Of a stretch of 64,000 bases of DNA, positions 10,861 to 64,000 are shown one piece after another. The first letter of the stretch is position 1. Each line of letters starts with the position of its first letter. Both the position numbers and the translations under genes were made by a program. The notes under the pieces are model-generated. The model saw only the letters and a list, made by a program, of their open reading frames with translations, was not told where the DNA came from and searched no databases. The stretch comes from Polytrichum commune (lineage: Eukaryota > Streptophyta > Polytrichopsida > Polytrichales > Polytrichaceae): assembly GCA_950295325.1 (NCBI GenBank), contig OX485807.1, forward strand, positions 27,997,666-28,061,665, in the 5' to 3' direction.

Positions 10861-10866
10861 GTGAAT

Positions 10867-11811: not shown

Positions 11812-11842
11812 CCTCCCAATAAAAAATGAAAAAAAATTCGTT

Positions 11843-12812
11843 GGTTGCAACCCTTGCTAGCCCCCTTAACAATATTGACCATTTTCATTTCTAGCAAGGA
11901 TTACGAGCGGTAACCTTTCGCATTTTGCCATGCGAATGGTTAACTCCCCATACCGCGGACCTTAGTTCATAGGAGTGGAACCAACCCTCCTACTTTGCTT
12001 TCGGGACTCACCCCTTAATCGGAAACCAATTCTTAGATGGGGACTTCCATCTATGAAAGTCCCATCTTATGTTGTTCATCACGTTGCCGGAGCAACACTA
12101 TAACAACCCGAACCATACTAGGCAACTATGGCCTCACATTGGGCCAATGCCCATGGAGGCCATGCCATTCAACCTCGGGTGGGTTCTACCACACCACCTT
12201 ATCCATATAAGCCTCTAGGACTTTTGGCAAGGCCCCTACCTCACTGTCAAGAAACCTTTTGTCTCTCTACCAAGAGTTGGGGCCAAGTAGACATTTATCC
12301 TTAGCCGTTGGGGCTAGAAGCCCCCAACAACTTCAAAACACCATAACTTCCTTGTATGATCTTAGATGATAACATCCAACCACTGCATCCTCATCTACGG
12401 TTCAAGCAGATGCTGATGGACTCCTCACTTACCCCATTCAAGCAAGTATTGAGAAAGTTATGCGTGTCCAAACCTTGACAGTCCTGAGAGCCACTCCCAG
12501 GCCACTGCTGCAGCAGAGCGCTGTCCCGGGACAGCGCCCCACTCCAATTGCCATATCTCCTAGCTCACACCTCCGATTGAGGTGTTCTTGAGCATTCTAG
12601 AATCAACACGCCATAAGCTACACATAGCCAATGGCCTTATCCTCATGACTCCTTGTCTCTGTGGGTGGGAGGCGTTCCCAACGCCGGGGCCCTCACCCAT
12701 ACTAGAATCACTTGGGCCCTCTCAACAACGGCGCCACAAGTCCCGGGTGTCACTCCGGGTCCCCCTTGTGCCCATGGTGTTTCGGGCACTCCTCATGGAG
12801 AGGTGCGCGATA
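11843..12812 (-). repeat. Second LTR copy, reverse orientation
   Basis: A further reverse-complement copy of the same LTR of about 970 bp, ending GGTGCGCGATA. It retains most of the palindrome around 12517-12538. It is more diverged than the 6882-7854 copy. It forms a tandem LTR pair with 10867-11811, with no internal region left between them. Confidence 0.8.
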
Positions 12813-14097
12813 GGGGGGGAGAGGTTGAACCAGGTGGACTAGCTGACTAGACCGCTAGTCCGCCCGATGTGGCAAGGCTATTAGAGTAATGAGTACAATA
12901 GATGTATGTTGATTGCTTTAGAGAATTCAATAGATAATTTCATAATCAAACCATTGCTATGTATTTGAAGCTCAAGTAATTTGGAGCTATCATGGTACAA
13001 ACCAATCTCTTCACACCAAATGTTTTTTTTTTAAGTATTCCTACAAGTAAATATGCCAAATGCAAGCAAATACACCACAACCCCAACTTTGATTTTACAT
13101 AAACATTGAGAAATATGCTCACATATAATAGATAAAGGGCTCAATTGATGTAGGAATTGATATAGAATTTAATGTAGAAATTGAATGCTTAAATCAATCT
13201 GCAATACATGTAGCAGAAGCCATACATGTGAAAAATAGGGAGAAAGCATATTCAGAGTGAAGAAAGGGAAGGAGAGTAAAGAGGGAAACATCCACCCATT
13301 GAGTGGCTCCCACTTGTGACTCATCCAACACACTCTATAGCTTGGCAATGGATTGACACCGATTTAGCTTCTATCCATGGCATGTACGAGTGTGTTCGTT
13401 ACCTTGCCCAAGCCATCACCACATAATGGACATAGCCTAATAGTCATCGAGTAATTCGACCTTAAGTGTACATTTTTTGCTATGCACCCACTTCTCACAG
13501 GATATGAAAGATGCAATTAGTGTGAGATGATTGACATGTCCAAATTGTGGCCGTAGGTACAATCCTCTGAGTTTTGGAGCTCACAAGAATAACTTATGCA
13601 TTATCAAAATGAATATTCTTAAGCTTGTCAAATGGACATTCAAGTCCCTCCAATTATGTTTGACTATTGAACTTAGAATGACTAGCTTAGCAAATTTTGA
13701 GCTAGTAAGGTATGGTTTTACATTAGGGCGTAAATTTGTCTTAAGAGACTTAGAGTCTAAAACACTCATTAATGAACTTTACTTTCGGACTTAAGATTGG
13801 ACCCATACACGAAGATTGATTTCTCAAACTAGGAAGAGTATATTCTAATGACGAGATGTAAAGGGAAAGTGATGCCACTTTGACACCGCTTCAATTTCTC
13901 ATACTTTGGACCCAAACCCTAGTGTAAACCACTTGGATCCAATTTTTTGCTCTTAACAAATAGGATCACTTAATTTTAGAGTTTCTTTGGTCTTGAAGGA
14001 TAGCATACCTTAGTGCCTTGGTAGCTTGAAACTAAAACGAGGGAGAGAAATGCAAAGCCCGTCACTGCCCGTCAATCCGGAGGGAGGGGCTTCGGAA
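12813..14097. other. Gene-free stretch upstream of RPL15
   Basis: AT-rich sequence with no readable gene. Bases about 13486-13690 are a member of a dispersed repeat also seen near 23925-24125 and 43365-43510 (shared pattern: TCTCAYAGGATAYGAA, then a TCCAAAT block and an ATCTTATTCATTATCAA-like block). Confidence 0.5.
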
Positions 14098-14103
14098 TTA
14101 GGG

Positions 14104-14112
14104 TTAGGGTTT
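14104..14112 (+). promoter_or_regulatory. Telo-box upstream of RPL15
   Basis: TTAGGGTTT, preceded by another TTAGGG, lies 120 bp before the RPL15 start codon. Telo-boxes are a known feature of plant promoters for ribosomal protein and translation genes. Confidence 0.6.
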
Positions 14113-14231
14113 GGGCTGAGGGTTGGGTGCAGCAGTTTATGTGCTGGGAGGGAGAAGTAAGGTCTCTCTTTTGCGATCGCCATCGCCAGGCCCAAGCTCC
14201 ATACGGCCGCAACACCCTCTCCCTTAGCGCC

Positions 14232-14846
14232 ATGGGTGCCTACAAGTATGTTGAGGAGCTATGGCGCAAGAAGCAGTCCGATGTGCTGCGTTTCTTGTTG
14301 CGTGTGCGCTGCTGGGAGTACAGGCAGCTACCCGGCATCGTCCGCATCACTCGTCCCACTCGTCCTGACAAAGCCCGTCGCCTCGGTTACAAGGCGAAGC
14401 AAGGATACGTGGTGTACCGCATCCGAGTTCGCCGTGGAGGCAGGAAGAGGCCTGTGGCAAAGGGAATTGTGTACGGAAAGCCCAAGAACCAGGGTATCAC
14501 ACAGCTCAAGTTCCAGCGTAACTTGCGATCGGTAGCTGAGGAGCGCGCAGGACGCAAGCTCGGAGGACTTAGGGTTCTGAACTCGTACTGGATCAACCAG
14601 GACTCGACCTATAAGTACTTCGAGATTATCTTGGTCGACCCTGCCCATACTGTTATCCGCAAGGACCCCAGGATCAACTGGATTGTGAATCCTGTGCACA
14701 AGCACCGTGAGTTGCGAGGACTTACCTCCGCAGGCAAGAAGTACCGTGGTCTTCGCGGCAGAGGCCATCTGTACACGAAGGCTCGCCCCTCAATTCGCGC
14801 TACTTGGAAGCGCAACAACACTCTGTCTCTCAAGCGCTACCGATGA
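14232..14846 (+). CDS. RPL15: 60S ribosomal protein L15 (eL15)
   Basis: A 204-residue protein beginning [17 protein letters not shown] and ending NTLSLKRYR, the full normal length of eL15, a core rRNA-binding protein of the large cytosolic subunit. Conserved blocks seen include [34 protein letters not shown], the [15 protein letters not shown] segment and [19 protein letters not shown]. The chosen ATG sits in a strong context (GCGCCATGG). The frame is open further upstream to 14127, but that extension has no family counterpart. The gene has no intron. A telo-box and a GGCCCA element lie upstream, as expected for a ribosomal protein promoter. The frame is intact, so the gene is probably functional. 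Confidence 0.98.
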
Positions 14847-26717: not shown

Positions 26718-28499
26718 TCACTTTTTCATGCCTTCAGACAGTTTTCTCTTCCTCTCTTTGAGGGTATCAACCTTCTCCTTCTTCTTGGCCAGTCCCATTT
26801 TGGCGGCATCATAGAGACCCCGTGTTTTCCTTGGCATCATCATCCGAGCCCTTTGCAATTCCTCATCCACTACTGGAGCATCAGATGATTTGTTGATGTT
26901 GTCAACAACAGCAGCAGCTTGTACCTTGTTTTCCAATGATGCAGAGTATGAGATACCCGCAATTTCTTTACTCAAATCTTCCGCAAACACCTTCTCTACC
27001 ATAGACACATCTGAAGCTCCTTCGGATTTCGACATGTCCTTTGTACCACTAACATCTGCAGGTGCTTTCTCAAAGGTTGGTAAAATGTTAGATGCATTTG
27101 CTTGCATCCGCTTCAAAGACTCGGCATACTCAGGCATGTACCCTTCGGCCTCATGGTCTACGAATGGGGATAAGTGAGGAGGGCATATCTTACCCACTAG
27201 GTATGCATCGGTCGGCAATATTAGTCTATTGTTAACACAATCAAACACCCACTGCGGCTGCACATAATCCCTTGACAGGAATTTGTGGCCTTGTGTGGGC
27301 CTGTCCACAATTTGATGAGTGATGCCCTCGTCTGCCTCATCAAAAGGCGCACCATCTCCATCCCAAGAAACTTTACCTCCAAAAGCTCGAATAACAAACA
27401 GCAAAGCCTCCCTTGGCACCTCCCTTCCTAAATAGAATTTGTAGGACTTAAACAACGAGTCCTCATCACCAGCTTCTTCCGTCGCGGTTTCCATAGGTTT
27501 CTCTGTGGCATTACCGGCCTCCCTCTCGATCGCGGAGAGCCGGCTGTGAAGAGACGCAAGCCTTGCTTGCGACTCCGCGGACCGGTCCTCCTCATTAACC
27601 TCAGCCATCTCAGCATCCGCTGCCACTTCTCCATTCTGTGGCTCCTCTGTAGCAGGCGGCGGTGCGGAGGCAAGTCCTTTCATAATTCCAAAGAGCTCCG
27701 CCGCAGCTTTCTCAAGCTTCTCATCAAGTACAGGTGGATACCGTAACCCTAGCTCATGGTAAAGCTTGAAATTCACGAAACCAACTAACGTTTCATAAAA
27801 CTCAAGGAAAGTCATCATAACACGGAAATCCACATCGGCAGGTAGAACCTGGCTTGTAGAATGTGGAGTCAGCCATGTGATCTTTTGCCCTCCAACAACA
27901 GCCTGGTAGTACACTCCCTTAACAGAAATGAAGGATTTGAGTAAACAACGAGACCGGATTACATACGCCTGCCACTCTAAGGACAGCTGACGTGCTGTGC
28001 GGATGTGTTCCACGCTAATCTTATGTGCATTGTCAGCGGGAAGAGTGGCAAACAAATGTAGCATAGTGAGAGAGTCATCTAGGTCACGAAGAGCATCAAC
28101 GAAGGAGGGATACCTCTCCTTCACCAAATGGTCTAACCTCCACACAGGCCGGTTCTTCAAAAGCCGCTCCGCCAAGTCCGGGTTCTTCTTCGCTCTCGCC
28201 TTTACAATCTTCTTCTCGTACGCTTTCAGCTCCCTGCTCTTGTTAAGCAGAGGTTCGTGTGCCAGAAAGGCGATGTCCTTCACATGGTAGTATGTCTTAT
28301 TGTGCCCTTCTGACTTCTTCTTCGGCTCACGAGGGTAAATCCCCTTCAAGATACACAAACGGCGAAACTCCGGAAGCTTAATTTGCAGGCGATTCAGCGC
28401 CTTGTTACGCGTGATGTACTTGGCCACATTGCCCTCCTTCCTCCTCTTTGGCCCCAGGTACTGCTTCGACTTGGACTTCTCTTTCGTTGGCCTCGTCAT
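26718..28499 (-). CDS. PES: Pescadillo homolog (ribosome biogenesis, PeBoW complex)
   Basis: An uninterrupted 593-residue frame. The N-terminal Pescadillo domain is clear (RRKEGNVAKYITRNKAL, FRRLCILKGIYPREPKKK, YYHVKDIAFLAHEPLL, ERYPSFVDALRDLDDSLTM). A variable acidic linker of about residues 275-345 follows. The BRCT domain at about 345-447 includes FYLGREVPREAL, AFGGKVSWDG and QPQWVFDCVNNRLILPT, and PPHLSPFVDHEAEGYMPEYA comes just after it. The tail is Lys/Arg-rich, suiting nucleolar targeting. Pescadillo works with BOP1 and WDR12 in 27S pre-rRNA processing and 60S assembly. The ATG at 28497-28499 starts MTRPTKEKSKSKQ; the frame continues six codons upstream only to a GTG. The gene is intronless here. 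A telo-box (28649-28657) lies 150 bp upstream. Confidence 0.97.
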   Translation of the reverse strand: MTRPTKEKSKSKQYLGPKRRKEGNVAKYITRNKALNRLQIKLPEFRRLCILKGIYPREPKKKSEGHNKTYYHVKDIAFLAHEPLLNKSRELKAYEKKIVKARAKKNPDLAERLLKNRPVWRLDHLVKERYPSFVDALRDLDDSLTMLHLFATLPADNAHKISVEHIRTARQLSLEWQAYVIRSRCLLKSFISVKGVYYQAVVGGQKITWLTPHSTSQVLPADVDFRVMMTFLEFYETLVGFVNFKLYHELGLRYPPVLDEKLEKAAAELFGIMKGLASAPPPATEEPQNGEVAADAEMAEVNEEDRSAESQARLASLHSRLSAIEREAGNATEKPMETATEEAGDEDSLFKSYKFYLGREVPREALLFVIRAFGGKVSWDGDGAPFDEADEGITHQIVDRPTQGHKFLSRDYVQPQWVFDCVNNRLILPTDAYLVGKICPPHLSPFVDHEAEGYMPEYAESLKRMQANASNILPTFEKAPADVSGTKDMSKSEGASDVSMVEKVFAEDLSKEIAGISYSASLENKVQAAAVVDNINKSSDAPVVDEELQRARMMMPRKTRGLYDAAKMGLAKKKEKVDTLKERKRKLSEGMKK

Positions 28500-28648
28500 C
28501 CTTAACAAAATCCCCACTAAGTTCTATGACACTCTAAGTTAAATCTCAGATGTCAAAAACATGTGATCCGAGTGCCTCCGAGATTGCACCGCAGTGGAGC
28601 GAGGGTTTGGAGGTGCGAGACGGCCACAATGGAACAGGGGACCGGGGT

Positions 28649-28819: not shown

Positions 28820-29350
28820 TATAGCCCACTCACACTTACTCATACGGACCACCAGTGAACAATTCCTACTAGTAGGGGCCAGTTTTTAGAGTTGATTTAT
28901 TAACCAGAGAGAGCCACCGGTTGCAACCGGATAACATTATCCAACCCAATACTCTTAACTCCGGCGCGGAGTTCGATGCGGCTCCGATGCGGCTCCGGGG
29001 AGGTTCGGATGCCAGCTCCGGTGGGTTTGGGTGGGTTGGGGCAAAAATTGCCCCCTATTTTTTTGATTGGGTGGGGCCTTACTTGATCTCATAAGGGGCC
29101 TCCCAGAGTAATTTGGGGCCGTAGAACCCAAATTTAGCAAAAAAAAACCAAAAAAAGTCATCAAGGGGCCAAAACGGGGAGGGCCAGAAAAATGGACCCA
29201 CCGGAGCTGGCATCCGAACCTCCCCGGAGCCGCATCGGAGCCGCATCGAACTCCGCGCCGGAGTTAAGAGTATTGGGTTAGGTAATGTTAGGGGTTGCAA
29301 CCAGTGTTATTCACTAGTGGCCCACACTAGTAAGTGTGGGTGGGCTATTA
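28820..29350. mobile_element. Large foldback element with GC-rich arms
   Basis: The outer arms (TATAGCCCACTCACACTTACT and the complement of AGTAAGTGTGGGTGGGCTAT) are imperfect inverted repeats. Inside, GGTTGCAACC occurs at both 28919-28928 and 29293-29302. A much better conserved pair of 83-bp arms follows at 28944-29026 and 29196-29278, containing GGCTCCGATGCGGCTCCGG and its complement. The loop is about 170 bp. No coding sequence. It lies just upstream of Pescadillo. Confidence 0.8.
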
Positions 29351-47839: not shown

Positions 47840-47851
47840 TGTTCAGTCTAG
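47840..47851. repeat. Target-site duplication, left copy
   Basis: TGTTCAGTCTAG, repeated exactly at 49525-49536 after the LINE tail. Confidence 0.9.
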
Positions 47852-47853
47852 AC

Positions 47854-49075
47854 CTACTCAACACACAAATTAAACACCCCACTCTCCATAATAGTCACCC
47901 AGACCAAACCACACTCAACTCCATGGTAAAAATCCTTCAAGACCGTACACAACCAATCACACTATACAAAGTCAGAGCACACGTCAACATTGACGGTAAT
48001 GAAAAAGCGGATAAACTAACAAAAGACGGGTTAGAATTAGAACACATAATTGCCATCCACCCATACGAACATGCCCACGCCACCCCGTACTATTATCAAA
48101 AGGACGTCTGGGCCTCGATGGCAGATGTCCCAGACAAAGGCCCAGTAAGATTCTTAGAAGAAAAAAATTAAAATATATGATAGGGAAACCAATATAGCAA
48201 TCATGGCCACACAAACCCCCAACACGTGTAAATGGACAGAAAATATAGACATTGACAAAGAACTGTCCAACGAATTCTGGACAAATCCCTTAATCACAGA
48301 CAAACAAAAATCATGCTTTATTAAATTCCGCACAGGAACATACATGGGTGATGCTAGAAAACAATTGTTCTTCGGTCACCAGAGGTACCCCTCTATCACG
48401 TGCCCTATATGCAATTCAAATGATCCAGACACTTGGCTACATGTACTACTGAAATGTAACCAACAACATATACACTCACTACGAATTAAAAGACATAACA
48501 AAGCAGTCGGAGAAATTAGGAAGCTCCTAATCTCGTCCGAAAAATCCCGATGTTTTACTCTCATGAATGCCGGTACCTTCAATAATAATCCCCAAGAAAA
48601 TACTGTCCCCAATTGGCTACTCTCCTGCACATGTAACACACAAAGATGTCATTGCAACGCAAGATTTCGACCTGATATACTCTGCGTTAAAGGATTACCA
48701 TATCAAAATGACCCTCCCATTGACATTGACCCTAACCTCACCATACAATTTATTGAATTCACATATTGTAACGACAAATTCTCCCCAGAAGCAATAGAAG
48801 CAAAAAACAACAAATACAAACCATTGATTGATAGTATCGCTTCCAGAGGATGGAAAATCGAACCACTTATTGTCATCACAGCTGGGGCCCGAGCTACGGC
48901 CCACATCCCATCTGTGAAAATACTAGAAGAAAATCTCAAAATACCCATGGTTACTATCAAAAATACCTTTAAAAATATTAATACCATTGCAATACAATAT
49001 GCCATGTCCATCCTCCTCCATAAGAGGAGAATTGAAAACCACCAACCGCTCCCCCAAAACTTAGACCCTCCATAA
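47854..49075 (+). pseudogene. LINE ORF2 C terminus: RNase H end, CCHC finger, restriction-like endonuclease
   Basis: The frame 47839-48171 gives the end of RNase H (HVNIDGNEKADKLTKDG). A small indel near 48168 shifts it, and 48203-49075 continues to the natural stop. A CCHC finger lies at 48401-48457 (CPIC, x9, H, x4, C). A PD-(D/E)XK-type core follows: RPDIL at 48668-48682 with the Asp at 48674, IEFTY with the Glu at 48755, and KNNKY at about 48800-48815, then WKIEPLIVITAGARA. CCHC followed by RPD...E-x-T...KxxKY is the arrangement of the restriction-like endonuclease of R2-type LINEs. In the longer copy the same protein continues past 64000. Confidence 0.75.
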
Positions 49076-49215
49076 AACCCAAAAACTTATATAATATTTA
49101 ATATCTATTTACAGCTCAGAATGAGGGATTGATGCCGGTTGGTTGGTACAAATTTCATGCCTTTTATTCACTTGCAGCACCAAGTCACGTCTTACATTTT
49201 AAACGATCATACGGA

Positions 49216-49274
49216 CTCGACTAGAATCGAACCCGGAACGTCTTAACTCAAACATCCTCCCACAACCAACCGAG
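49216..49274 (-). other. tRNA-like A/B-box sequence in LINE 3' UTR (antisense)
   Basis: The minus strand has CTCGGTTGGTTGTGGGAGG (A-box-like), then TTAAGACGTTCCGGGTTCGA with a good B box. It ends in CGAG, which pairs with the 5' CTCG. Plant SINE heads look like this. At 59 nt it is too short for a tRNA. Confidence 0.45.
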
Positions 49275-49481
49275 GAATCATGACTTGGTGTTCACTCTCA
49301 TTACGAAAACACTAATTATACTTAAAAGGCATGCACCCCCGTGGGCCATGATCGGCCCATGTTATTTGTTTCTCGGTTACTATAGTGTCCATCCTCGAAA
49401 GAGGAGAGTAGTTTTGTCCCAGCTTCCCCATGTCCTGTGGGCATCGGGTTGTTGGCATTACGAACGGACACTCTATTCACG

Positions 49482-49524
49482 CCGGCCCCTAAAAGGGACC
49501 GGAGTTTCTATCTATCTATCTATC
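49482..49524 (+). other. LINE 3' stem-loop and (CTAT)n tail
   Basis: CCGGCCCC-TAAAA-GGGACCGG (49482-49502) forms a hairpin with one mismatch. Six bases later a CTAT/TCTA repeat of about four units runs to the target duplication. Terminal hairpins followed by microsatellite tails are used by several LINE groups for template recognition. Confidence 0.7.
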
Positions 49525-50290: not shown

Positions 50291-50422
50291 CGGAGAGAAC
50301 CGGCAGTTAGTATCAGATGAACCGGTTGAGTTTGAGAAATAACCAGTTGAAGTTGGAGACTTCGGGAGAATGACTGATCATTTTAGAGGAGTGTATAGAA
50401 TACACCTCAAATGAATTCGGAA
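50291..50422. mobile_element. Truncated GGGGAGA-family MITE
   Basis: Starts GGAGAGAACCGG, then CCGGTTGAGTTTGAGAAATA and ATCATTTTAGAGGAGTGTAT as in the other copies. It lacks the right end. Confidence 0.6.
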
Positions 50423-50439
50423 GTGTGGAGGGAAGTGAA

Positions 50440-52886
50440 GTACAATTGGAGGAGCTGATGCGGGGCTGAAGAAACGGGGAGGGACTGTTGCGTAATGGGA
50501 GGTGTTAGGTCACAGATCTAAACAACTCTATGTGAGACCGGGAGGAGTGACGCCCAAATCGTGATCCACATTTTAGAGTGTTAGATCTAAAACCCAAATC
50601 TCATTGAAGTGTTGTAGATGTTTCAAAATGGATTAGAACTGAAGCATGCTGGGATCCATGAGTGTGTGCATAGTTGGTGTGTAGAAGCTAACGGCGAAGC
50701 AGCAACACATCTAGGAGATCCAGGGTAACCAACACACCCTTACGCGGCAAGTCCCAAACTGCCTACAACAAATCATAACCAACACATTACGCATGCGGAG
50801 ATAGCTGCCGGAGCAGATTTGCCTACACCGAAAAAAGAATAGAGCACGCCGAAACCAGATTTGACTCAAACCCATCCCTTGCTCATTTATGTTCATTTAT
50901 GTTTAAAACCTCACAAATCGTGCAGGGAAGTCACAACATAAAGTCGCACCGGAGCAGAACTGCCTACACCGAACGGAATCCGAACACGCCGAAACCAGAT
51001 TTGTCTCAAACCCACACCTTACTCATTTTCGTTTGCTCTTTGCTTATTCTCACGAATCTTGTGTGAAAGTTACACCATAGAGTCTATCAGATTATCAGTA
51101 ACCCCACCTTAGAAGAGAACCCAATCCCACCTTAAAGGACTAAAATCTCAGGCTGCCCTTTCCAAAACTCACGAACCACATAAAAAGGCTTCATCGTAAA
51201 AGGTTCCGAAAACTCAATATCTCCGAATCCTCGAATCCCCCAAAACCTCACCTTAAATAACCGTAACCACACCCTAAGATCTTAGAACCCCCGACTCCCC
51301 TGGATTGAAATTCACGTAGCTGGCAAGAAAGCCTGACCGTAGAAGTCTCTGATCTTAGAGTCCCCAAATTTTAGATCTCCAACCTTAGGATCCCTGAAAA
51401 CTCAAAAGACTCCGAAATCTCATCTAGAGTGGTCGTAATCTCAGCTTAAAAAGTCCAGAAACTCCAAAAATTATCTTAGAGTTCATAAACTCCCGTACTA
51501 AAGCCTCAAAATCCCTGCAATCTCATATCAGAGTCCTAAAGTCTACAAAATATCAGCTTAAAGGTCCCGAAACACCCTGAGACGGATCAGTAGAATATTA
51601 AAAAGCACCAGAAACCCAAAAACCCCTTAAAAACCCCTAAACACTTCATCTTAATAAAACCCCAGAATTTCACCTTAGAACCTCAAAATCTCTATAACTT
51701 CATAACAGAGTTTTAGAGGCCCCGAAATCTCTCGAACCAGATCAGTAGTAGTAGAGAGCACCGAATTCCAGAATCCCCAAATTCCCACCTCAGAGAGATC
51801 TCATCCTCATTGTAAAATAGAAAAATCACCAACTGATCCTGCTAAAACTCACAAACCCAGCAAGAAAGCCTCGAAGTAGAGCTTCAGTAATCCTAAAAGC
51901 CTATGAATACCAGAGTCGCTGTAGACAAAAACTCTGAAACCTTAGAACCTCCGAAATTTAAAGTCTCCGAACCCCAGAATCTCAGAAACCTCAGAGCGAT
52001 TGCACCCACATCGTAGAGTACAAAAATCACCAACTGACTCTACTAAACTCACAAACCCAGCAAGAGAGTCTCGAAGTAGAGATTCAGAAATCCTAAAGGC
52101 GTATGAATATCAAAGTCTTTGTAATTCAAAAACTCTGAAACCTCTAGAACCTCCGAAGCCCCAGAGTCTCCGAACCCAGAGTCTTCGAAACCTCAAAGTC
52201 TCAGAACCTCAGAAGTCCTCGAAACCTCAGAGTAATTTCACCCTGATCCTGCTAAACTCACAAACCCAGCAAGAAAGTCTCAAAGTAAAGCTTTAGAAAT
52301 ACTCACAGATTACGAATATCATAGCTTCTGTAACTCTAAAAATCTGAAACCTTAGAACCCCCGAAACCTCAGAGTCTCAGAACCCCAGAGTCTCCAAAAA
52401 CTACAGAGTCTTCGAAACCTGAAAAGTTTCTGAACCTCACAGCTTCCAAATCTGAAAAATCTATGAGGGTACGTAAATTATAACTATGAGTATACGTAAT
52501 CTCATAACCTTATGATCCCTGTAATTACACAATAGTGCATTAGAGTCTACAAAATATCACTTCAGAGCCTCCGAAACCAGAAATCAGAAAGGTCCCGGAG
52601 CCACCAGTAAAACCAGAACCTCACACACCTAGTTTGTTAGAATTTCCTCACCTAAGAATCCCCAACACAGCAGAAGGCTCCGAACCTAACCTCAGTAGTC
52701 CCCGAAGTCTCATCATAAAAACCCCCTAACACAAGGCATAAGAGTCCTATAAACCTAGAAAACTTTGAAAAAGCACCGCACCTGTCTACGTATGTAGACT
52801 GCTGGAGTCTAACCCATTCAGAGCCGGTACTACGTAGAGCACAGAGGCATCACCAACTAACCAAGAAGGAGCTGCTACCTACCGCG
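50440..52886 (+). promoter_or_regulatory. Probable 5' UTR of the large LINE, with tandem monomers
   Basis: A region of about 2.4 kb without an ORF, rich in CTCAGAGTCTCCGAA-like phrases. Two units of about 140 bp lie near 50807-51090 (GCCGGAGCAGA..TGCCTACACCGAA..., ACGCCGAAACCAGATTTG). Three units of about 200-209 bp start at 51835, 52036 and 52245 (GAYYCTRCTAAA.CTCACAAA, CCCAGCAAGARAG). Tandem promoter monomers are known in some LINE 5' UTRs. The exact 5' end of the element was not found. Confidence 0.55.
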
Positions 52887-54644
52887 ATGGCTTCACCCTC
52901 ATCATTCCGTACCGCCTTTGGGGATGATGACAATATGGAGGTGGACACACCTTCACAAAACCTCATGCGGCTCCTAGCGGAGAAGGCAAAGGAGAATCAA
53001 GCTGCGAAGGAAATAGGCACCAAGAGGACCCGGGAGAAGACAACACCGAACAAGTCTCTACACCAAACTCCACAACGACGCCCACAAGCCACACAGGTAA
53101 ATTCCATTTTCCCGGAACAAAGGTTCCGTCAAAATTTTTGGTATGGTTTCACTAACATGGAGAAATTGGCTATGGAAGAGGGGTTGGAAGAGCTCTTTGA
53201 TGGTGAATCCATTGAAGATAGGGTACTTAGGGGTGTACCAAGGAAGGAAGCGGAAGAGATGGAGGGGGTCACAATATCCTTCCCAAGGATATCCCAAATC
53301 TATTACCCAGGTAAGAGGGAGGATGGTGTCCTTGGACAACACCTCAACCTAACACAAATTCCATATGATATCCCAATCAATCCCAATACATGTCTCTCTT
53401 TGGACTTCCATGTTGCTATTGAATTTCAACTACCCAACACCCCTCTCCTCCATAACCATGTGAAAGAACTAGTAAGGAAAAGACTTAAGTTGATGCAAAT
53501 ACCACTTGGTACTAACCTTATTGAGCCCATATCTATTATGTGCATGAGTGTCAAGAGAGGTGGAGAGAAAGGAGTTTGGGCGGGTATTGCCAAACTCCAC
53601 CTTCTCCACCCCGAAATTGATGGTGTGGCCTTGTTGAAAGGACTTAGACCATTCATACTACAATTGGACCCCAAATCAACCCAATGTACTCTTGGAAAGG
53701 TATGTAAGACTTACCACTCCATAGCTAGGAACAACAACCTCTCAATCAAAATCACTAGTGAAACTTTGATTGATGTCTCTTCACACATGCTCTTCAAAGA
53801 TGTTCTAGAGAATAGCTTTAGGAGAGGTTATGAATTTGAGATTGTAGAGGTGCAAAAAGACACTTCTAACAACCATGCTTACATTGTTGCACCGACCCCC
53901 GCACAAGCCAAGAAAATTCAAGAACTCCAAGTTGCAACACACTATGAAATTTTGGAAGGACAAGTGAAGAAAGGGCCTTCTCTCACCTTGGAGCAAAAAC
54001 AAAAGAAAGAAGCTCTAACTCTCACCCTCTACAACCTTCCCATCTTGATGAGCATTGATGACACATCTCTTGAAATTTGCAAGATAATTGGAACCAAGAA
54101 TGTTGTCTCCATTTGGTTCCATAAGCAAGATGGAATTAGACACAATGGTAGTGCAAATGTTGAATGCCTCAACCCCTTTGTATACAAAAAATTTGTAGGA
54201 AAAGAGAAAAAAATTGGTGTTTATCATGTGGAAATCACTCCACACCGTAGAAGTCTTGATGGTATTGACAAACCCTCCAAAGATTTGTTGATCAAGTTTG
54301 GATTTGAGGATACTAACACTTGCTTGGTGAACACCATTGAAGCAATCCAAAACCAAAACCAAAGGGAGAAGAATGCCACCAAAAGCGAAGTTTTTTCCAT
54401 CATGAAGGAGGCCATTGAAGAAGGCAACAAGAAACTTAAGCTTGAACTACACGAAGAGATGAAGGTCTTGAAGGATGACATAGTCAAAGAGGCCCACAAC
54501 TATGTAGATGACATCAACGAAAAATTGAAGAAGCAAATGTTGGACATCCAAAGCACATTAACCATGGCACTTAACGGGATGCAACAAATTACTGGGTTGG
54601 TAAATCCAAATCTTATGATCAAAGACCTGCCAAATGTGGATTGA
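52887..54644 (+). CDS. LINE ORF1 protein, 585 aa
   Basis: An intact frame starting MASPSSFRTAFGDDDNMEVD in a good context (ACCGCGATGG). The N terminus is acidic then basic (KRTREKTTPNKSLHQTPQRRP). Two globular stretches follow, about 155-350 and about 370-475. The second (ALTLTLYNLPI...GTKNVVSIWFHK...SANVECLNPFVYKKFVG) has the alternating pattern of an RRM-like fold, but I see no firm RNP motif. Residues about 505-560 form a likely coiled coil (EEGNKKLKLELHEEMKVLKDD), as in ORF1 proteins that trimerise and coat LINE RNA. No CCHC knuckle is present. Base use is normal, with plenty of G, unlike ORF2 directly downstream. Its stop overlaps the start of the ORF2 frame (TTGA). Role as nucleic-acid chaperone is inferred from position. 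Confidence 0.75.
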   Translation: MASPSSFRTAFGDDDNMEVDTPSQNLMRLLAEKAKENQAAKEIGTKRTREKTTPNKSLHQTPQRRPQATQVNSIFPEQRFRQNFWYGFTNMEKLAMEEGLEELFDGESIEDRVLRGVPRKEAEEMEGVTISFPRISQIYYPGKREDGVLGQHLNLTQIPYDIPINPNTCLSLDFHVAIEFQLPNTPLLHNHVKELVRKRLKLMQIPLGTNLIEPISIMCMSVKRGGEKGVWAGIAKLHLLHPEIDGVALLKGLRPFILQLDPKSTQCTLGKVCKTYHSIARNNNLSIKITSETLIDVSSHMLFKDVLENSFRRGYEFEIVEVQKDTSNNHAYIVAPTPAQAKKIQELQVATHYEILEGQVKKGPSLTLEQKQKKEALTLTLYNLPILMSIDDTSLEICKIIGTKNVVSIWFHKQDGIRHNGSANVECLNPFVYKKFVGKEKKIGVYHVEITPHRRSLDGIDKPSKDLLIKFGFEDTNTCLVNTIEAIQNQNQREKNATKSEVFSIMKEAIEEGNKKLKLELHEEMKVLKDDIVKEAHNYVDDINEKLKKQMLDIQSTLTMALNGMQQITGLVNPNLMIKDLPNVD

Positions 54645-57600
54645 CCACAAATCGCCGGATAAAACAAAAGTATTTACTTCAATACTATCTTATATACATA
54701 CACATATGTAGACATAGTATTAAACATAGTATTACACATAGTATTCTATATACTATTTCACCTAGAATAAATACTAGATACCATCGTACTACTCATAGTA
54801 TCCCACAATGTCCAAAATACCATATGAAATACAAGTTATCTACTTTATACAAAAACAAACTCCATACTCGAGCAAAATTCCATACTCAAGCAAAACACCA
54901 TACTCAAGCAAAATACCATACTCAAGCAAAATACCATACCCAAGCAAAATACCATACAAAATACCATACAAAAAAAAATATCATACTCAAGCAAAAAACC
55001 ATACTCAAGCAAAATGCCATACTCAAGCAAAATGCCATACTCAAACAAAATACTATACTCAAGCAAAATACTATACTCAAGCAAAATACCATACCCAAAA
55101 AATACCGTACTCAAGCAAAATACCATACTCAAACAAAATGCCACACCCAAGCAACACATCATACTCAAACAAAATACCATACTCAAGCAAAATGCCATGC
55201 TCAAGAAAAATGTTATACTCGAGCAAAATACCACACTCAAGCAAAATACAACACCCAAACAAAACATTATACTCAAACAAAATACAAATACCATACAATT
55301 AATCCAAAATACACATACTCCCTACTCAAACAAATAAAAAGCATAACACCCGCCAAAACTAACCCTTTCACTATAAACAAAAACATGATCATAAAAAACC
55401 AAAGAATAAATAAGACTAAAACCCGACCATACCCAAACATCATACACACGCCTACAACAAAGTCCGTACTCTATAATAAAAGATACCATCATACTAGCCA
55501 TGATACCATACGACGGCCAAAATACCATATGAAATATAAATACAATCACTTTACTTTACACATGCACAAAGACAGAACTCAAACGAAACAATATACACAC
55601 CCAAAATACAAACCCCACACAAAATACATATTACACCCAAAATATAATCCCCACCAAACATATAAACTCCACCAAAAATACAAACCCCACCCAACATACA
55701 AAACACAACCCATACCTAATAAACTACCGTTCTCAACACCAAACTACCACTCAAATTACAAATACCCAAAAAATAAAATGGCCTCGGCCTACCGGCCTCG
55801 CCATAAAACTAAATACAAAAATAACTTTACACAATATTGGGGAACTAACCTAACTACAAGCAAACATACAAAATTACAATCCATACCTAAACAACTAAAA
55901 AACATTATACCCACCCCACCCATCACCCCCCCTATAACAAAATACACACCAAACAAATACCACAAATCAAACAAGAACAAACCAAAGATACCTTCATCAT
56001 GCATCCAAATCAAAGATACCTTCACCATACCAACAAACAAACTTCATCTTACATCCAAACCACATCTAAAATATAAGTTGCATCCTAAACAAAGGACGTA
56101 CTCAAAACTAAATCCCTCCCTCACACCTAAACAATCAAATAACATAATACACAACCCGGACTCCGTTAAATACTCAAAATTCATACCACATCCAAGGCAC
56201 CTCCTTCATCCAAGACACGGATCCCATCCAAAATACATAAACTACCCAAAATACATATCTCATCCAAAACATAACCCACATTATGAACTAGGAACCTACC
56301 CTAACCTAATCAATTACCCTCCACCCAATCAACTAAGAAATACAACATCCCCCCCACAACAACATACCCACCCAAAACAAAAACCACCACGGCCCCACCC
56401 AATATACTACCCTCACATAAGATATAGTCCCCACTTAAAGCACAATCTCCATCCAAGAAACAAGCTACACCCAAATTACAAAGTCCACCTAAAACACAAA
56501 CTTCATCCAAAAACCAAACTATCCCCAAACCACAAACACCCCCAACTTCACCCACAATACATACCTCATCCAAAACATAGACTCCATCTAAGACACATCT
56601 CTCATCCAAATAATAAACTTCATCCGAAATATAGAATACACTCAAAAGTTAAACTCTACCTAAAAAACAAAGTGCATCCACAACAATGCCCAAAACATAA
56701 TACCCACCCAAAGCAAGAAAACCAACCTAACCTAGAGCCCCATCCACTATCTAAAATACATCCCAACCTAAGCTCAAAAAGCACACCATACCCTAGCTCC
56801 AAACCCAACCTCCACTTGAAAAACAAATTATGTCAAAACTACGAAATGACCGTGACCTACCAACTTCACCACAAACCAAACCCTATCACAACCAAATGGA
56901 AACCAAGCACAACTACAAAACACGTACTCCAAGACAACTCCCATACACACCTAACAACTAAATACAACACCCACCAAAACCACAAACCATTCCCCAAAAA
57001 CCACCCCTACCCAAAACTAAATATACATATTAAACAAAAATTCAACCCGAAAAACAAAGCAACCTCAACATACCAACCTCACCTCTCAACAAATACCAAA
57101 GCACACCTACAAAACAAATGCTCCAAAAATAAACCCTACCCTAGATTCGAACACCATAACAAAATCAAACACCTATTAAGCCCTCATATAAAATACCAAC
57201 CCCACCGAAAAAACACAATGGCCTCGGCCTACCGGCCTCGCCACACAAAGAATAACAAATACCACTTCATAAATAATTGGAAACCTAACTCAATAACAAG
57301 CCATAAATCTACAAATAATACGAAACCACACTTCTCACCCATACAAATAGAAAAAACCATACCCGCTATACCTAACCTATTTTCCACAACCAAATGTACA
57401 ATCATAATATATCTAAAAACAAACATGAAAAACCCCAAAATAATTCACTTCCACGGATACTACTTCATTAACAAACTAGAATTACTAAAATGCGGAGACA
57501 TAGAATCCAACCCCGGACCAATGCCTAACATCCTACATACGCATCCTGCAACACACAAAAAGAGAGCCAAGATATACTTCATTCCAAACACTATCAAACT

Positions 57601-58783
57601 ACAACCCGAATACCAACACATAGCAAATACATTTGCTCCCATACTAAGAAATACACACCCTCTACACCATCAAGCAATAATTACCCACCCACATCTACAC
57701 CAATACATCCAAACACAAAGGCAATCACCACCAACCCATATGCTATATGCTATAGTCATCACCATCCACCCCTCAATAGACACATGCAATAGTATACTAG
57801 CCCAACCCCAAAACTACCACTTTAACGACATATGGACCAACACACTAATTATTAGACTATCTAACCTCACCAACCCCCCCGAAAGACACATACTGACACC
57901 GCACCCCTACACAATATTCATAGAAAACAATCAACATATAATACTCCCCCAAAACTCAATACACACCAAAATATACGATTTCATCCACAACCAAGCCACC
58001 ACACCCACACCAATCACCCTCAAGAAAGAATTCCCCTTCCTTCCAAACCAGTTAATAACCGAAACACTTAGATGTTTAGAAAATATAAGCGAATACTCAC
58101 ACCCACCCCCACTCCCGGCCGCTCCCACACCAATCACAAAAATGAACTCTAACACCGAGCACGAAACAAACATAATAACTTGGAATGCGTCATCGCTCAA
58201 CACATCACTACCAAACTTACAAGACTTAATCAACAACTCTCTAAATAACACAGCAATCATTCATATCCAAGAAACCAAACTCACTGCAAACAAATTTACT
58301 AAATATATACAAAACTTATTTCCGGAATTCAAACTCACTTTCAACAACACACACGCACTCACGAGGTGCATCCAACAAAGAATGCCCTATACCCCCGGAA
58401 GAGGTGGCCTACTCACACTTATCCATCACAAATATGCATTCCCGGGAAATGTCACCAAAATTCCCACTCCAGCAAACATCTCCCCGTACCTACAAGTAAT
58501 AAAAATAAACAACCACCCACTAACACCTTGGCTAATTATACACATGTATATGCCTACGCACCCAGAAGACACATGTCTTATCCCACACCTTAAGAATGAA
58601 ATCACTAAACACATCACTACACACCCCAATCACATATACACACTGTGCGGTGACTTTAACAGAGATATTGCACTTAGGGGCAGACAAAATAACAACACTA
58701 CTACCCCCCTCACAAGAAGAGGACTTCCAATGGAAAAATTTTACCACATCTCTCGACTTAGAATATATCACTACCAACACTAG
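54641..58783 (+). CDS. LINE ORF2, first frame: repeat region, 2A motif and start of APE endonuclease
   Basis: 1380 codons open from 54641, overlapping the ORF1 stop by four bases. No ATG lies at the frame's start; the first in-frame ATG is near 54821. Codons about 65-220 are encoded by 18-bp repeats (hexapeptide HTQAKY). Longer Lys/His/Pro-rich repeats (KLHPKY-like) follow to about codon 830. MASAYRPRH occurs at codons 380 and 860. A 2A motif LLKCGDIESNPGP ends at codon 960. The APE domain starts near codon 1177 (NIITWNASSL), with catalytic Glu in IQETK (58271), GRGGLLTLIHHKY and CGDFNRD (58649-58660). At the six-C run near 58704 the frame leaves the domain. The remaining APE motifs are in the next frame. 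The tail after 58704 is not genuine protein. Confidence 0.8.
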   Translation: MTTNRRIKQKYLLQYYLIYIHICRHSIKHSITHSILYTISPRINTRYHRTTHSIPQCPKYHMKYKLSTLYKNKLHTRAKFHTQAKHHTQAKYHTQAKYHTQAKYHTKYHTKKNIILKQKTILKQNAILKQNAILKQNTILKQNTILKQNTIPKKYRTQAKYHTQTKCHTQATHHTQTKYHTQAKCHAQEKCYTRAKYHTQAKYNTQTKHYTQTKYKYHTINPKYTYSLLKQIKSITPAKTNPFTINKNMIIKNQRINKTKTRPYPNIIHTPTTKSVLYNKRYHHTSHDTIRRPKYHMKYKYNHFTLHMHKDRTQTKQYTHPKYKPHTKYILHPKYNPHQTYKLHQKYKPHPTYKTQPIPNKLPFSTPNYHSNYKYPKNKMASAYRPRHKTKYKNNFTQYWGTNLTTSKHTKLQSIPKQLKNIIPTPPITPPITKYTPNKYHKSNKNKPKIPSSCIQIKDTFTIPTNKLHLTSKPHLKYKLHPKQRTYSKLNPSLTPKQSNNIIHNPDSVKYSKFIPHPRHLLHPRHGSHPKYINYPKYISHPKHNPHYELGTYPNLINYPPPNQLRNTTSPPQQHTHPKQKPPRPHPIYYPHIRYSPHLKHNLHPRNKLHPNYKVHLKHKLHPKTKLSPNHKHPQLHPQYIPHPKHRLHLRHISHPNNKLHPKYRIHSKVKLYLKNKVHPQQCPKHNTHPKQENQPNLEPHPLSKIHPNLSSKSTPYPSSKPNLHLKNKLCQNYEMTVTYQLHHKPNPITTKWKPSTTTKHVLQDNSHTHLTTKYNTHQNHKPFPKNHPYPKLNIHIKQKFNPKNKATSTYQPHLSTNTKAHLQNKCSKNKPYPRFEHHNKIKHLLSPHIKYQPHRKNTMASAYRPRHTKNNKYHFINNWKPNSITSHKSTNNTKPHFSPIQIEKTIPAIPNLFSTTKCTIIIYLKTNMKNPKIIHFHGYYFINKLELLKCGDIESNPGPMPNILHTHPATHKKRAKIYFIPNTIKLQPEYQHIANTFAPILRNTHPLHHQAIITHPHLHQYIQTQRQSPPTHMLYAIVITIHPSIDTCNSILAQPQNYHFNDIWTNTLIIRLSNLTNPPERHILTPHPYTIFIENNQHIILPQNSIHTKIYDFIHNQATTPTPITLKKEFPFLPNQLITETLRCLENISEYSHPPPLPAAPTPITKMNSNTEHETNIITWNASSLNTSLPNLQDLINNSLNNTAIIHIQETKLTANKFTKYIQNLFPEFKLTFNNTHALTRCIQQRMPYTPGRGGLLTLIHHKYAFPGNVTKIPTPANISPYLQVIKINNHPLTPWLIIHMYMPTHPEDTCLIPHLKNEITKHITTHPNHIYTLCGDFNRDIALRGRQNNNTTTPLTRRGLPMEKFYHISRLRIYHYQH
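54846..55300 (+). repeat. 18-bp coding tandem repeat array
   Basis: About two dozen units of CCATACTCAAGCAAAATA with substitutions and a few 6-9-bp length changes, all keeping the main frame. Because the unit is a multiple of three with no stops, all three forward frames and a reverse frame stay open here. Confidence 0.95.
55778..55806 (+). repeat. GC-rich repeat module, copy 1 (MASAYRPRH)
   Basis: ATGGCCTCGGCCTACCGGCC followed by TCGCCA stands out in A/C-rich sequence. It is in frame with ORF2 at codon 380 and identical to the copy at 57218. Confidence 0.85.
57218..57246 (+). repeat. GC-rich repeat module, copy 2 (MASAYRPRH)
   Basis: Identical to 55778 over at least 26 bases, exactly 1440 bp (480 codons) downstream and in frame. 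It is followed by a similarly spaced weak match at protein level (K..F...W..N..TS). Confidence 0.85.
57470..57520 (+). other. 2A ribosome-skipping peptide within LINE ORF2
   Basis: Codons 944-960 read NKLELLKCGDIESNPGP, in frame with the upstream region and the downstream endonuclease. It has every residue of the D-x-E-x-N-P-G-P consensus with the usual leucine-rich lead. Skipping would fall between GGA (57515-57517) and CCA (57518-57520), with ATG next. It would release the repeat-rich N-terminal protein from the enzymatic part. Confidence 0.9.
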
Positions 58784-58960
58784 TATCTCCAGACAAGGTG
58801 GCTACAACTACACATCAACAAGCCTAATAGATGGTTTCTACATTCACTCCCTTGACAACAGCAAATTTACCTCCACTACAAATACAAACATGAATCTAAA
58901 TTCAGATCACTACCCAGTCACATTACACATCCCACACAACACACTTATAGCTAGACCTCC
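58166..58960 (+). other. APE-type endonuclease domain of LINE ORF2 (split by frameshift)
   Basis: In order: TWNASSL (Asn at 58184), IQETK (Glu at 58271), GGLLTLIHH, HMYMPTHP, GDFN (58649-58660), then after the frameshift YNYTSTSLIDGFYIH and NSDHYPVTL (SDH at 58902-58910). These are the catalytic and structural motifs of apurinic/apyrimidinic-type LINE endonucleases, which nick target DNA to prime reverse transcription. Confidence 0.9.
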
Positions 58961-61900
58961 GCCCTCTACAAACACCACACCAACTAGGATACTGAACCCG
59001 ATACCACCGGAAAACCTAGAAAACTTTAACATAACATTCTTCGAAGAAAACTCCACCCAACTTAAACAACTTATCACATTATTAGAAGACAACCAACACT
59101 TAACACCTGATCAATGGCAAAATGCGTGCACATCATTAGAATACATTATAAACAAAATCTCAGAAACAATTGAAAAAACCTACAAAGCATACCCTCTACC
59201 CAACCTCACAAACAGAACATCAAAACAATGTGGTTTTTTACAACGCAAACTAGCTAGAGAATGGAAAAGACACCTCAACACATATCACCTCATCAGGAAA
59301 ACCATTTACATTGTACAAAATAATCCAAGCTGGCAAGTACACCCCATCCTAAATGATATCCAAAACCACCAACACGTCAACATCCCGCACCCACCTACTA
59401 CAACAACATCTCTTGTCGAATAGATTGACACCATAGCAACTATCGCAAAAATGGCAAATAAAGAAGCCAGGAAAATTACCACAAAATACACCAGAGACTG
59501 CATCCTAAAAGCCGTATCAAAATACCGTGAAATGTATGAAAAAAACCCCCAAAAAATAAATCGGAAAGTCTTCAAGAACACTGAAACCTCACCTCTTGAC
59601 TCCATCATTGATAGACAAAACAACATATTAACCAACCCTGAAGACATTGCTTCAGACATTTACGCACAACAATCCATCAGTAACCGCCCAACAGTCCCCA
59701 CATGTCACCATCAAAATACACATCCAATTCACTGTACATGTGGAGTAAGGCAATACCCTTGGTACGACTTAGATGGATACACAATCGACAGACGAGGAGA
59801 ACCCCAAATCCCCTTGCACACATACCTTGATAAAGAAACATACGACTTCTATCTTAAAAACCTAAGTAATAATAAAGTCTCAGGTCCAGACAAAATACCC
59901 AACTCAATTCTAAAAAATATGCCTCCACGCTTTCACAAAATGTTGTTTCTATTCTTCAAACACTGCTATAAATAAAAACAAATCCCAACATCATGGAAAA
60001 CTAGCCTAACAGTTTTACTATATAAAAAAGGTAACCCATCACAACTAACAAATCACAGACCTATTGCACTAGCTAACACTATATATAAATTATACACAAG
60101 CACACTAACCTCTATGCTATTAGCATACGGAGAAAGATACAAAATACTACACGATAGCCAAGAAGAGTTCAGAGCAGAAAGAAGCACCTCCAGACAAATC
60201 CAAATACTAATTGCAGCATTTGAAGACGCCAGACTCACAAACCAAGATATATACATTCTTTATATTGACTTCAAAAATGCCTTTGGCTTCATTGACCACG
60301 CCAGACTATTAGCCATAATGAAAGACCTGGGTTATCCCAATGACTCCATAAACCTCATAGGAAACATATACTCACAATCATCAACCATATTTCCCGGCGA
60401 ACACTTCGGGAAAACTCTACCAATCCACATCCAAAGAGGTACAATACAAGGCGATACCCTTAGCCCATATCTATTTATCATATTCTTGGAACCCCTACTT
60501 AGATGGCTGCAACAAGGAAATAATGGATATACCTTCGGTACGTCCATAGTGAAAATCTCATCAGCAGCATATGCAGACGATCTTGCAGCAATAGCCAACA
60601 AACTAGAAGCATTACAAACACAATTAAATAAACTAGACAAATTCTGTGAATGGGCAGGAATGGACCTAGGTATACCAAAATGTGCAGTGACTGGATACCC
60701 AAACAAATCCAAACTTAACCCCACAACCTTCAAGGCCCTAATCCAATCCACTAACATAAACTATAGAAACCAACCTATACCAGTCCTAAACCAACATGAA
60801 TCCTATACATACCTAGGAATAAATCTTGCACCATCACTCAAATGGAAAACACAAATAAATATCACCACAGCTAAAGTAATCAAACAATGTCAAGCCCTCG
60901 TAGCTTGCCCAGCTACTATGAAACAAAAAATCAACATGGCAGACACAGTCATACGTGCTGGAATAGCATATAGTTTTTATGCAGTACCATATTCCATACC
61001 AGCCATAAAAAAACTAGACAAAAAAATCATCGCACTCCATAAAACAATATGCGGAATACCTAAATGCACATCTAATATTGCCACGCAACTCCTCCACAAC
61101 CTATTTGGAATTGAAGCATTTTCATTACAAAATGCCTATCTAAGGTGCATCGGAGAACAATTACAAAATGCCCTCAATGACAAAGGGAGAATTGGAAGAA
61201 TATATACCGGTCTAGTACAATTCATACTCGCCACACATGGGGGCTCTCAAGAAATCACTCGCATTAAATACCACCACTGTGTTAGATCACCCATCACTAG
61301 AACATTGTTCCTGCTAAAACATAAAGCCGGAGTCCATCTAAAAAACACAATAAATAACTTTCTACTAACCCCATCCTCACTTGAAACTGCATGGATGCAA
61401 GAAGCACAAATGCTATATGGCCTAAACCCCAACACCTCACTTAAACTACTACACAAATTACTTATATATAATATAATCACACTAGACCAAATTACCTTGC
61501 CTAATGGTACCACTCTGATGAACAAGGACGAATTCAAAATCTACCACTCCACTCCTTCTAAACTTATCCAAAGCGCACTTAACATAGCTAATGAACTATT
61601 CTGCCACCCCCCCTGCAATCAATGCCCCCTACCCTGCCAACAACACCACCCACCAAGATCCCTAAAAAACAAATATATAATAAGAAATCACAACATCCTA
61701 CCTCACACACCGACCGCCCCCGTACACCCCCCTAACCCCCCCATCCCCCATCTACCTCCTTCCCCCAACAACATGCTTAAAGGCCCCAGACAATTCCCCA
61801 TACACAAAATACTCGATCACAAACAAAAACAAACTAACGACCACAATGGAATAAAAAGAACAGTTACGTCATATATGTGTCAATGGACCACAACAAATAA

Positions 61901-62978
61901 CAACACATATAATAAATGGCGAACCCAAAGGGACCTATACCCCTACTGTGAAGCCAACATATGCAACCACAACTCAAACCTGCTTATCCAATATTACACA
62001 GAAAGACAACACAATCATTTTTCAAACATCATTAACGCTTACTTCACCACGGAACAACACCGAGACACAAGATACGTCACACCATCCACAATAATTCCAC
62101 TAGCACATATCTCTATTAGTGAATGCAACCCAGAAAATGACATTGAAACAAATTCTGATACTATCCAAACACAATTCGATGTCGCCCACATATACGAAGA
62201 CAATGGAAGGCATCTCATCACCATCCCGAAAGCTAGACTAACATGGCTATAGAAACAATACCAATTGGCAAAAAATACCACACATGGTCTAGAACCATCT
62301 ACCCAATCATTCGAAACTGAAATTGTTTGGCTATACCAAAGATACAAATACCGTATCCCAAAAAACGACCCACTCAAAAGAGCCCAATATACAATACCAA
62401 CTCAAATACTGGATCTACTAATTACAACATTCAATATTACCCACTCATACTTTTCATCCCCAGTTACATGTCCTACACAATTCACCCAATTCTACTCACC
62501 CTTCTCACGAGACATAATATTCGGATCCTTAGGAAAATTGTTTGACTATAAATGGCAAGGAATTGGATACGCACATCCTCACACATCAACAGACCTACAA
62601 CAAGCCATTCACTGGGCACGCATGGCGGCCCAAAATGACCCTTACACAATCATTATAATTATATCCCCAGACACTGACTGGTACCAAAACTCAAACCCAC
62701 ACATAGGCCCATTCCCAGACACACATGTCATTGCCCATTTTGCTGCTGACACAATCACATACGAAGAACCAACAATACCCCCCGAATTCAATACTACAAG
62801 GAAAGAACCATCTACCATGCAAATATTCTGTATCCATCACCAAAATAATAACATAGGTACCTACGAACAAATGAAGCTAATACACGACACAACAAATAAC
62901 CTCCAAATATTACAAAGCCACACTCAAATTGCACCACCCACCCCTCCGAACATCACCGTTAACCCTAGTAAAAAATGA
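58704..62978 (+). pseudogene. LINE ORF2, second frame: reverse transcriptase and downstream, with premature stops
   Basis: One frame runs from the frameshift near 58704 with stops at 59421-59423, 59973-59975, 62250-62252 and 62976-62978. RT motifs: SGPDKIPN near 59882, RPIALANTIYKLY near 60058, YIDFKNAF with catalytic Asp at 60267, RGTIQGDTLSPYLF near 60435, YADD at 60570-60581, GMDLGIPKCAV near 60660, and YTYLGINL. A Cys-rich CHPPCNQCPLPC lies near 61602, followed by a Pro-rich stretch. Near 62242-62315 the neighbouring frame looks more protein-like, so two small indels rather than a simple stop may lie there. Few lesions over 4 kb suggest a fairly young copy. Confidence 0.9.
62394..62850 (+). 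other. Possible Dam/DIRS-like methyltransferase fold between RT and RNase H
   Basis: The segment YFSSPVTCPTQFTQFYSP, then IIFGSLGKLFDYKW, GIGYAHPHT (62562-62585) and QQAIHWARMAAQNDPYTIIII resembles the layout of phage Dam-like N6-adenine methyltransferases and the related domain of DIRS-type retroelements. There an (N/D)PP(Y/W) box sits where AHPH stands here. The catalytic box is not canonical, so activity is doubtful. This is a call by eye and could be wrong. Confidence 0.35.
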
Positions 62979-64000
62979 GCTAAAACAAACTACCCAAACA
63001 TATCCCTATACAATAATAACCCCACCCCACAACTCCCAAACTACCAAACCAACTTACCACTAAAATTCCACCCCCAATTTAGCTACTACATAGATGGATC
63101 CTTTATAAAACCCAAAGAAATTGCCCCTAGAATATGGAGAAGAGAAAGAGCTAGATACGGTATCTATAGCCCCAAAGGCTTAAATATCGCCAAAAGACTC
63201 CATGGGCATCAAAATATACTACGTGCAGAAATGATGGCTATACACAAAACACTAAGAATCATCAATACACAATTCCCTAATGAACCCGCATTTATATTCA
63301 CAGACAGTCTAAACGTACTATATCTACTCAACAAACAAATTAAACACCCCACTCTCCATAATAATCACCCAGACCAAACCACACTCAACTCCATGGTAAA
63401 AATCCTCCAAGACCGTACACAGCCTATCACATTATATAAAGTCAGAGCACACGTCAACATTGACGGTAATGAAAAAGCGGATAAACTAGCAAAAGACGGG
63501 TTAGAATTAGAACACAGAATCGCCATACACCCATACGAACATGCCCACGCCACCCCATACTATTATCAAAAGGACGTCTGGGCCTCAATGGAAGAAGTCC
63601 CAGACAAAGGCCCAGTAAGATTCTTAGAAGAACAAATTAAAAAATATGACAGGGAAACCAATATAGCAGTCATGGCCACACAAACCCCCAACACGTGTAA
63701 ATGGACAGAAAATATAGACATTGACAAAGAACTGTCCAACGAATTCTGGACAAATCCCTTAATCATAGACAAACAAAAATCATGCCTTATTAAATTCCGC
63801 ACAGGAACATACATGGGTAATGCTAGAAAACAAATGTTTTTCGGTCACCAGAGGTACCCCTCTATCACGTGTCCCATATGCAATTCAAACGATCCAGACA
63901 CTTGGCTACATGTACTGCTGAAATGTAACCAACAACATATACACTCACTACGAGTTAAAAGACATAACAAAGCAGTTGGAGAAATTAGGAAGCTCCTAAT
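62979..64000 (+). CDS. LINE ORF2, third open part: RNase H and CCHC finger (continues past window)
   Basis: The same frame as upstream, open to the window end. RNase H has all four acidic residues: YIDGSF (Asp 63093), AEMMAI (Glu 63228), FTDSLN (Asp 63303) and NEKADKLA (Asp 63480). The CCHC finger at 63870-63926 matches 48401-48457 of the truncated copy, which shows that a restriction-like endonuclease follows. Over the shared 676 bases the two copies differ by only a few percent. Confidence 0.88.

Follow-up and report, generated by a model that had tools for sequence, protein, structure and literature searches.

The 64,000-nucleotide stretch of Polytrichum commune DNA analysed here (the window; C5:27997666-28061665 in a 407.8-Mb genome) raises the question of whether a land-plant long interspersed nuclear element (LINE) can carry two different nucleases, an apurinic/apyrimidinic-type endonuclease (APE) and a restriction-like endonuclease (RLE). 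An element of this kind, Dualen, was reportedly described in Chlamydomonas reinhardtii by Kojima and Fujiwara in 2005, and Dualen also carries a cysteine protease. The passages available from the literature state that Dualen encodes both APE and RLE and treat dual-nuclease LINEs as a sign that RLE gave way to APE while LINEs evolved (PMC4640811), list Dualen/RandI for green algae only (PMC4438587), and give the LINEs of plants as L1 and RTE (PMC9033089), so a land plant would be a new host group for such elements. An earlier note on this DNA had proposed a Dualen-like element with two endonucleases, and this proposal is supported by a long copy that contains APE together with RLE, by copies that encode both in a single frame and by a reverse transcriptase (RT) clade shared with Haematococcus dual-nuclease elements. 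We conclude, with a probability of about 0.85, that the window contains a high-copy, recently active non-long-terminal-repeat (non-LTR) retrotransposon of the Dualen/RandI group.

The earlier note began the element at 52887; because a 16-bp duplication, TACACCTCAAATGAAT, stands at both 50401-50416 and 65016-65031, we place its limits at 50417 and 65015. The features of this long copy, and of a truncated copy before it, are as follows.

47840..47851, plus strand: 5' target-site duplication TGTTCAGTCTAG of the truncated copy, 12 bp, with the second copy directly after the tail
47852..49524, plus strand: 5'-truncated copy with the end of RNase H, complete CCHC finger and RLE (48158-49072), 3' untranslated region and (CTAT)n tail
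50401..50416, plus strand: 5' target-site duplication of the long copy, 16 bp, its second copy lying beyond the window end
50417..64000, plus strand: full-length LINE copy, continuing to 65015 on the same contig, with a (CTAT)n tail at its end
51504..52577, plus strand: 5' region with direct repeats of degenerate sequence, in many cases spaced by about 200 bp, from repeat comparison
52719..54644, plus strand: first open reading frame (ORF1), 641 residues
54816..55337, plus strand: array of 18-bp tandem repeats close to the start of the ORF2 open frame, from repeat comparison
57494..57520, plus strand: 2A/StopGo motif GDIESNPGP, 216 codons upstream of APE
58169..58919, plus strand: APE endonuclease, first to last motif, with a change of frame between 58667 and 58799
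59976..62249, plus strand: RT and the linker after it (RVT_1 1.3e-27; YADD 60570-60581), flanked on both sides by in-frame stops
62253..62975, plus strand: PCIF1-like domain (PF12237, E 5.7e-13), with AHPH where NPPF is expected
63084..63491, plus strand: RNase H (PF00075 2.7e-12; D 63084, E 63222, D 63294, D 63465)
63870..64000, plus strand: CCHC finger of the C-terminal RLE, whose PD-(D/E)XK core follows at 64137-64295, beyond the window end

The RT YADD, the four acidic residues of RNase H and the CCHC finger reported earlier for the long copy were all found, and the APE motifs stand where they had been placed (N 58169-58186, E 58259-58279, Y-x-P 58544-58561, GDFN 58646-58666 and SDH 58902-58919), although not in one frame. 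With this frame change and four stops, at 59421 (TAG), 59973 (TAA), 62250 (TAG) and 62976 (TGA), the long copy is dead. The restriction-like endonuclease expected past 64000 is present in the same copy, where a 521-codon frame from 62979 encodes RNase H and the entire RLE (RPD 64137, EFTY 64224, NKYKPL 64278). The truncated copy overlaps the long one at high identity, as had been seen (94% and 96% in two 300-nt blocks), and contains the CCHC-RPD-E-x-T-K module attributed to it, as CPIC...H...C 48401-48457, RPD 48668-48676, EFTY 48755-48766 and NKYKPL 48809-48826.

The genome matches SAM_LFY (LEAFY), a mark of land plants and their close kin, at four places (best 7.1e-33), against none of 14 control genomes, the three named ones being prokaryotes. 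Searches of the same genome scored at least 150 loci for the PCIF1-like piece (150 of 1916 candidates) and at least 129 for the RLE (129 of 5675 candidates). Six loci, chosen for the longest open frames among those listed (2924, 2663, 2625 in three cases, and 2372 codons), all encode APE, RT, PCIF1-like domain, RNase H and RLE core within one uninterrupted frame, using profiles built for this analysis; for the 2372-codon frame Pfam returns Exo_endo_phos_2 (9.7e-8), RVT_1 (1.4e-32), RNase_H (1.3e-14) and PCIF1_WW (3e-6, below the curated cut-off). In ORF2, which follows ORF1, the leader comes first, and after it 2A, about 200 residues that match nothing known, APE, RT, the PCIF1-like domain, RNase H and CCHC/RLE. 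Twenty further loci were picked for the PCIF1 piece, which all 20 contain, and 19 have the RLE as well. The three 2625-codon ORF2s differ at 30-51 positions per 7875 bases, and the family has therefore moved recently. When the 3' ends of eight copies were compared, seven showed a (CTAT)n tail and unrelated flanks, with target-site duplications of 11-16 bp (tied with a second 12-bp match in c5_35 and c2_42), of which the shorter could singly arise by chance, the 16-bp one hardly; no tail was seen in the roughly 500 bases examined of the eighth, c5_33. Site-specific insertion is rejected by flanks that differ between copies, and the flanks of the copies compared give no sign of a fixed target, a pattern that would fit target-primed reverse transcription with relaxed specificity.

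An RT tree (73 rows, 453 columns, LG+C20+F+G4) recovers a clade, with support of 100/99 and presuming a root outside it, that unites five elements of the host with six proteins of Haematococcus lacustris and 29 other rows. Beyond this clade are R2 retrotransposons (PDB 9nl3, 9nl2, 9dou, 8gh6; three PDB sequences in the tree), fungal and tick elements, and plant L1, represented by named Ipomoea and Paspalum proteins and seven host-genome loci, rows that we ourselves take to be L1; no grouping of the family with plant L1 or other APE LINEs was found in the 73-row tree. R2 is not known to carry APE or RNase H and is specific for 28S rDNA. The phylogeny proposed in the earlier note, in which Haematococcus proteins stand for the dual-nuclease group and R2, plant L1 and fungal and tick elements for the others, places the family with Haematococcus dual-nuclease elements and apart from R2 and plant L1. 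Since the deep branching order has weak support and a number of the outside rows are long, we claim no 'midpoint' position. The plant L1 LINEs share APE, RT and host group with the family and differ in RT clade, in the lack of an RLE core in the named controls and in their (A)n tail, as given in the available part of PMC9033089.

The C terminus of the plant family is predicted to be an R2-type RLE, combining the CCHC finger with a PD-(D/E)XK fold that holds D, E and K, and its modelled fold matches the R2 RLE, a kind of structural match that the earlier note had proposed as a check. RPD, E and K of this site are conserved in the plant family and several algal relatives (P0251 and P0269 deviate at RPD). 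The ratio of nonsynonymous to synonymous rates (dN/dS), calculated for the PCIF1-like domain and the RLE in eight selected pairs out of 28 possible, is 0.06-0.13 for the RLE in six subfamily pairs, two of them with dS of about 1.5. Of the 58 clade proteins, 37 combine APE with the RLE core, as do 21 of the 28 named Haematococcus proteins. The RLE core is missing from 13 clade proteins, and in six of these RNase H is missing too, as expected of truncated frames. It could be that the RLE has been kept for DNA binding or for structure and that APE alone cuts, as in ordinary APE LINEs, which would agree with insertion sites that share no common sequence, as with many APE-type LINEs; sequence cannot reveal catalytic activity, but the retained site residues (with the two deviations above), the fold match and the purifying selection make this unlikely, though it must be reckoned with.

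Dualen/RandI resembles the plant family in combining the two nucleases within one element and in having RT and RNase H, while its listed hosts are green algae and its cysteine protease has no counterpart in the plant copies scanned: no peptidase family was found in the ORF1 and ORF2 pieces searched. The 3' end of RandI, given as (ATT)n or (CTATTT)n in the available text of PMC3747384, is a non-A repeat like (CTAT)n. The PCIF1-like domain and 2A occur in both the plant family and its Haematococcus relatives. The Haematococcus lacustris elements (28 named proteins among P0252-P0291) lie in the same RT clade on a separate sub-branch, and P0255 has the order 2A, APE, RT, PCIF1-like, RNase H, RLE as in the plant element; what sets it apart is a cysteine protease of the Josephin type, placed after 2A and before APE, together with a weak match to PHD. 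A degenerate Josephin-like protease at this place in the plant family is rejected by an hhalign probability of 0.1% (six versus 19 sequences). Cysteine proteases vary among same-clade relatives (Ulp1 with weak OTU in P0241, OTU in P0242, Josephin in P0255), and PHD fingers are annotated in some. Horizontal acquisition from a green alga, instead of descent, would suit the green-algal listing of Dualen/RandI in the portions available of PMC4438587 and the absence of the group among the plant LINEs given in those of PMC9033089, yet it appears quite improbable given the deep divergence from Haematococcus elements, the two subfamilies in the host and the many closer relatives in other data.

An APE-only LINE with a C-terminal zinc finger misread as RLE is very improbable: an untrimmed RLE profile does match 22 of 34 controls, APE LINEs included, but this possibility is rejected by the RT tree, the R2 RLE fold match and the RLE core, which is absent from the named plant L1 controls. 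An APE LINE and an R2-like LINE lying adjacent or nested, or joined by misassembly, might be suspected from the split frames of the window copy, but is scarcely conceivable and rejected given the six single-frame copies with all five domains, the RLE at 19 of 20 sampled PCIF1-piece loci and the same domain order in relatives from other sources.

The dual-nuclease family also has a PCIF1-like domain between RT and RNase H. In the window this matches Pfam PF12237 at 49.3 bits against a cut-off of 31.1 (40.7 bits in an intact copy; 27.4, below the cut-off, in the divergent subfamily L010), and phmmer against the PDB finds PCIF1 at 0.0028. An iterated family profile recovers the domain in 53 of 58 clade proteins and one of 34 controls (P0321), and it lies between RT and RNase H in all 52 clade proteins having both. 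The cap adenosine methyltransferase PCIF1/CAPAM (PDB 6irx, 6irv) shares with it a block FASPL...D-x-x-FG(S/A)...W-x-G; the LINE domain is embedded in a LINE protein and lacks the catalytic motif NPPF. At this position six aligned host rows read AHPH (five) or AFPT (one) and relatives NPEY, AHPG, WNVP or other letters, with NPPF in none of 24 aligned rows and none of 37 others scanned for the letters. Six subfamily pairs give a dN/dS of 0.04-0.10 for the core of the domain, and two further pairs, which approach saturation, give 0.23-0.26; the C-terminal part is less constrained (0.12-0.24, same six pairs). Because NPPF has been altered, the probable role of the domain is to bind the element RNA at its capped 5' end and not to methylate it, suggesting the clade took over part of the host mRNA cap machinery.

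A speculative cycle can be drawn from these domains. The ribosome would skip at 2A, freeing the leader from the enzyme; APE would most likely make the first nick, assigned to it because insertion is not site-specific; the RLE would most likely act on the second strand or a DNA junction; RNase H would remove RNA, and the PCIF1-like domain would hold the capped 5' end. This allotment of cuts to the two nucleases is a guess, somewhat more likely wrong than right. A wider proposal, that the entire dual-nuclease clade has a hallmark so far overlooked in the PCIF1-like domain, a cap methyltransferase turned cap-binding module holding the element's capped 5' end, so that full-length templates are preferred, with the nucleases splitting the strand cuts (APE first, RLE second), we consider rather doubtful as a whole. 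The second half of LINE integration is described as poorly understood in the part available of PMC6895275, and a land-plant family with many copies and some intact frames provides a second system for asking which nuclease makes which cut.

The 2A motif, as G-D-I-x-x-N-P-G-P, is present at 11 of 12 loci examined (absent at L015), 201-217 codons upstream of APE in the four measured frames with a single in-frame motif. The window and the c5_35 group, with GDIE[SP]NPGP, and L013, with GDIE[LI]NPGP, match the core (D/G/C/N)(V/I)ExNPGP. Elsewhere the glutamate position varies (E, K, H or Q); the passages available from PMC12846837 give over 95% activity for H and 56% or 26% for the change to Q, and do not include K among their variants. 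They also describe natural 2A as nearly absent from plant viruses, with which a natural 2A in a plant element contrasts, while trypanosomes and further species have non-LTR retrotransposons known to carry 2A, according to the available part of PMC4981915. In Haematococcus relatives, P0255 among them, LLLAAGD(I/V)ExNPGP stands upstream of Josephin, and the motif occurs in 17 of 58 clade proteins, many of which start late. Two motifs share one open frame in L012 (2287 and 2749) and L013 (495 and 1296), the stretch after each in L013 resembling a repeated cassette; in c5_33 the second is in a different frame.

ORF1 of the window copy has no Pfam match above cut-off. It is 26-37% identical to ORF1 of other copies, and 37% to that of c5_35 (L018:2103-4343), though their PCIF1-like pieces are 92% identical; 5' ends also differ among copies, and swapping of ORF1 or 5' ends between copies is possible from these comparisons. 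The ORF2 sense strand, measured in the window 54575-64000 region and the L017/L018, L023/L024 and L010 copies, is low in G and high in A and C, with 11% G overall and 6-7% at third codon positions (three ORF2s), against 20-21% G in two ORF1s.

Elsewhere in the window are two genes with long uninterrupted coding frames, Pescadillo (26718-28523, minus strand, 8.9e-111) and ribosomal L15e (14025-14846, plus strand, 4.3e-91). Inverted repeats with short loops, MITE- or hairpin-like, lie at 28932-29290 and 6384-6742 (95 nt at 98% and 112 nt at 92%), a tandem 192-bp repeat, about 97% identical, at 3163-3609, and a repeat family present in both orientations, with most pieces 83-98% alike, at 1-729, 6882-7835 and 10739-12765.
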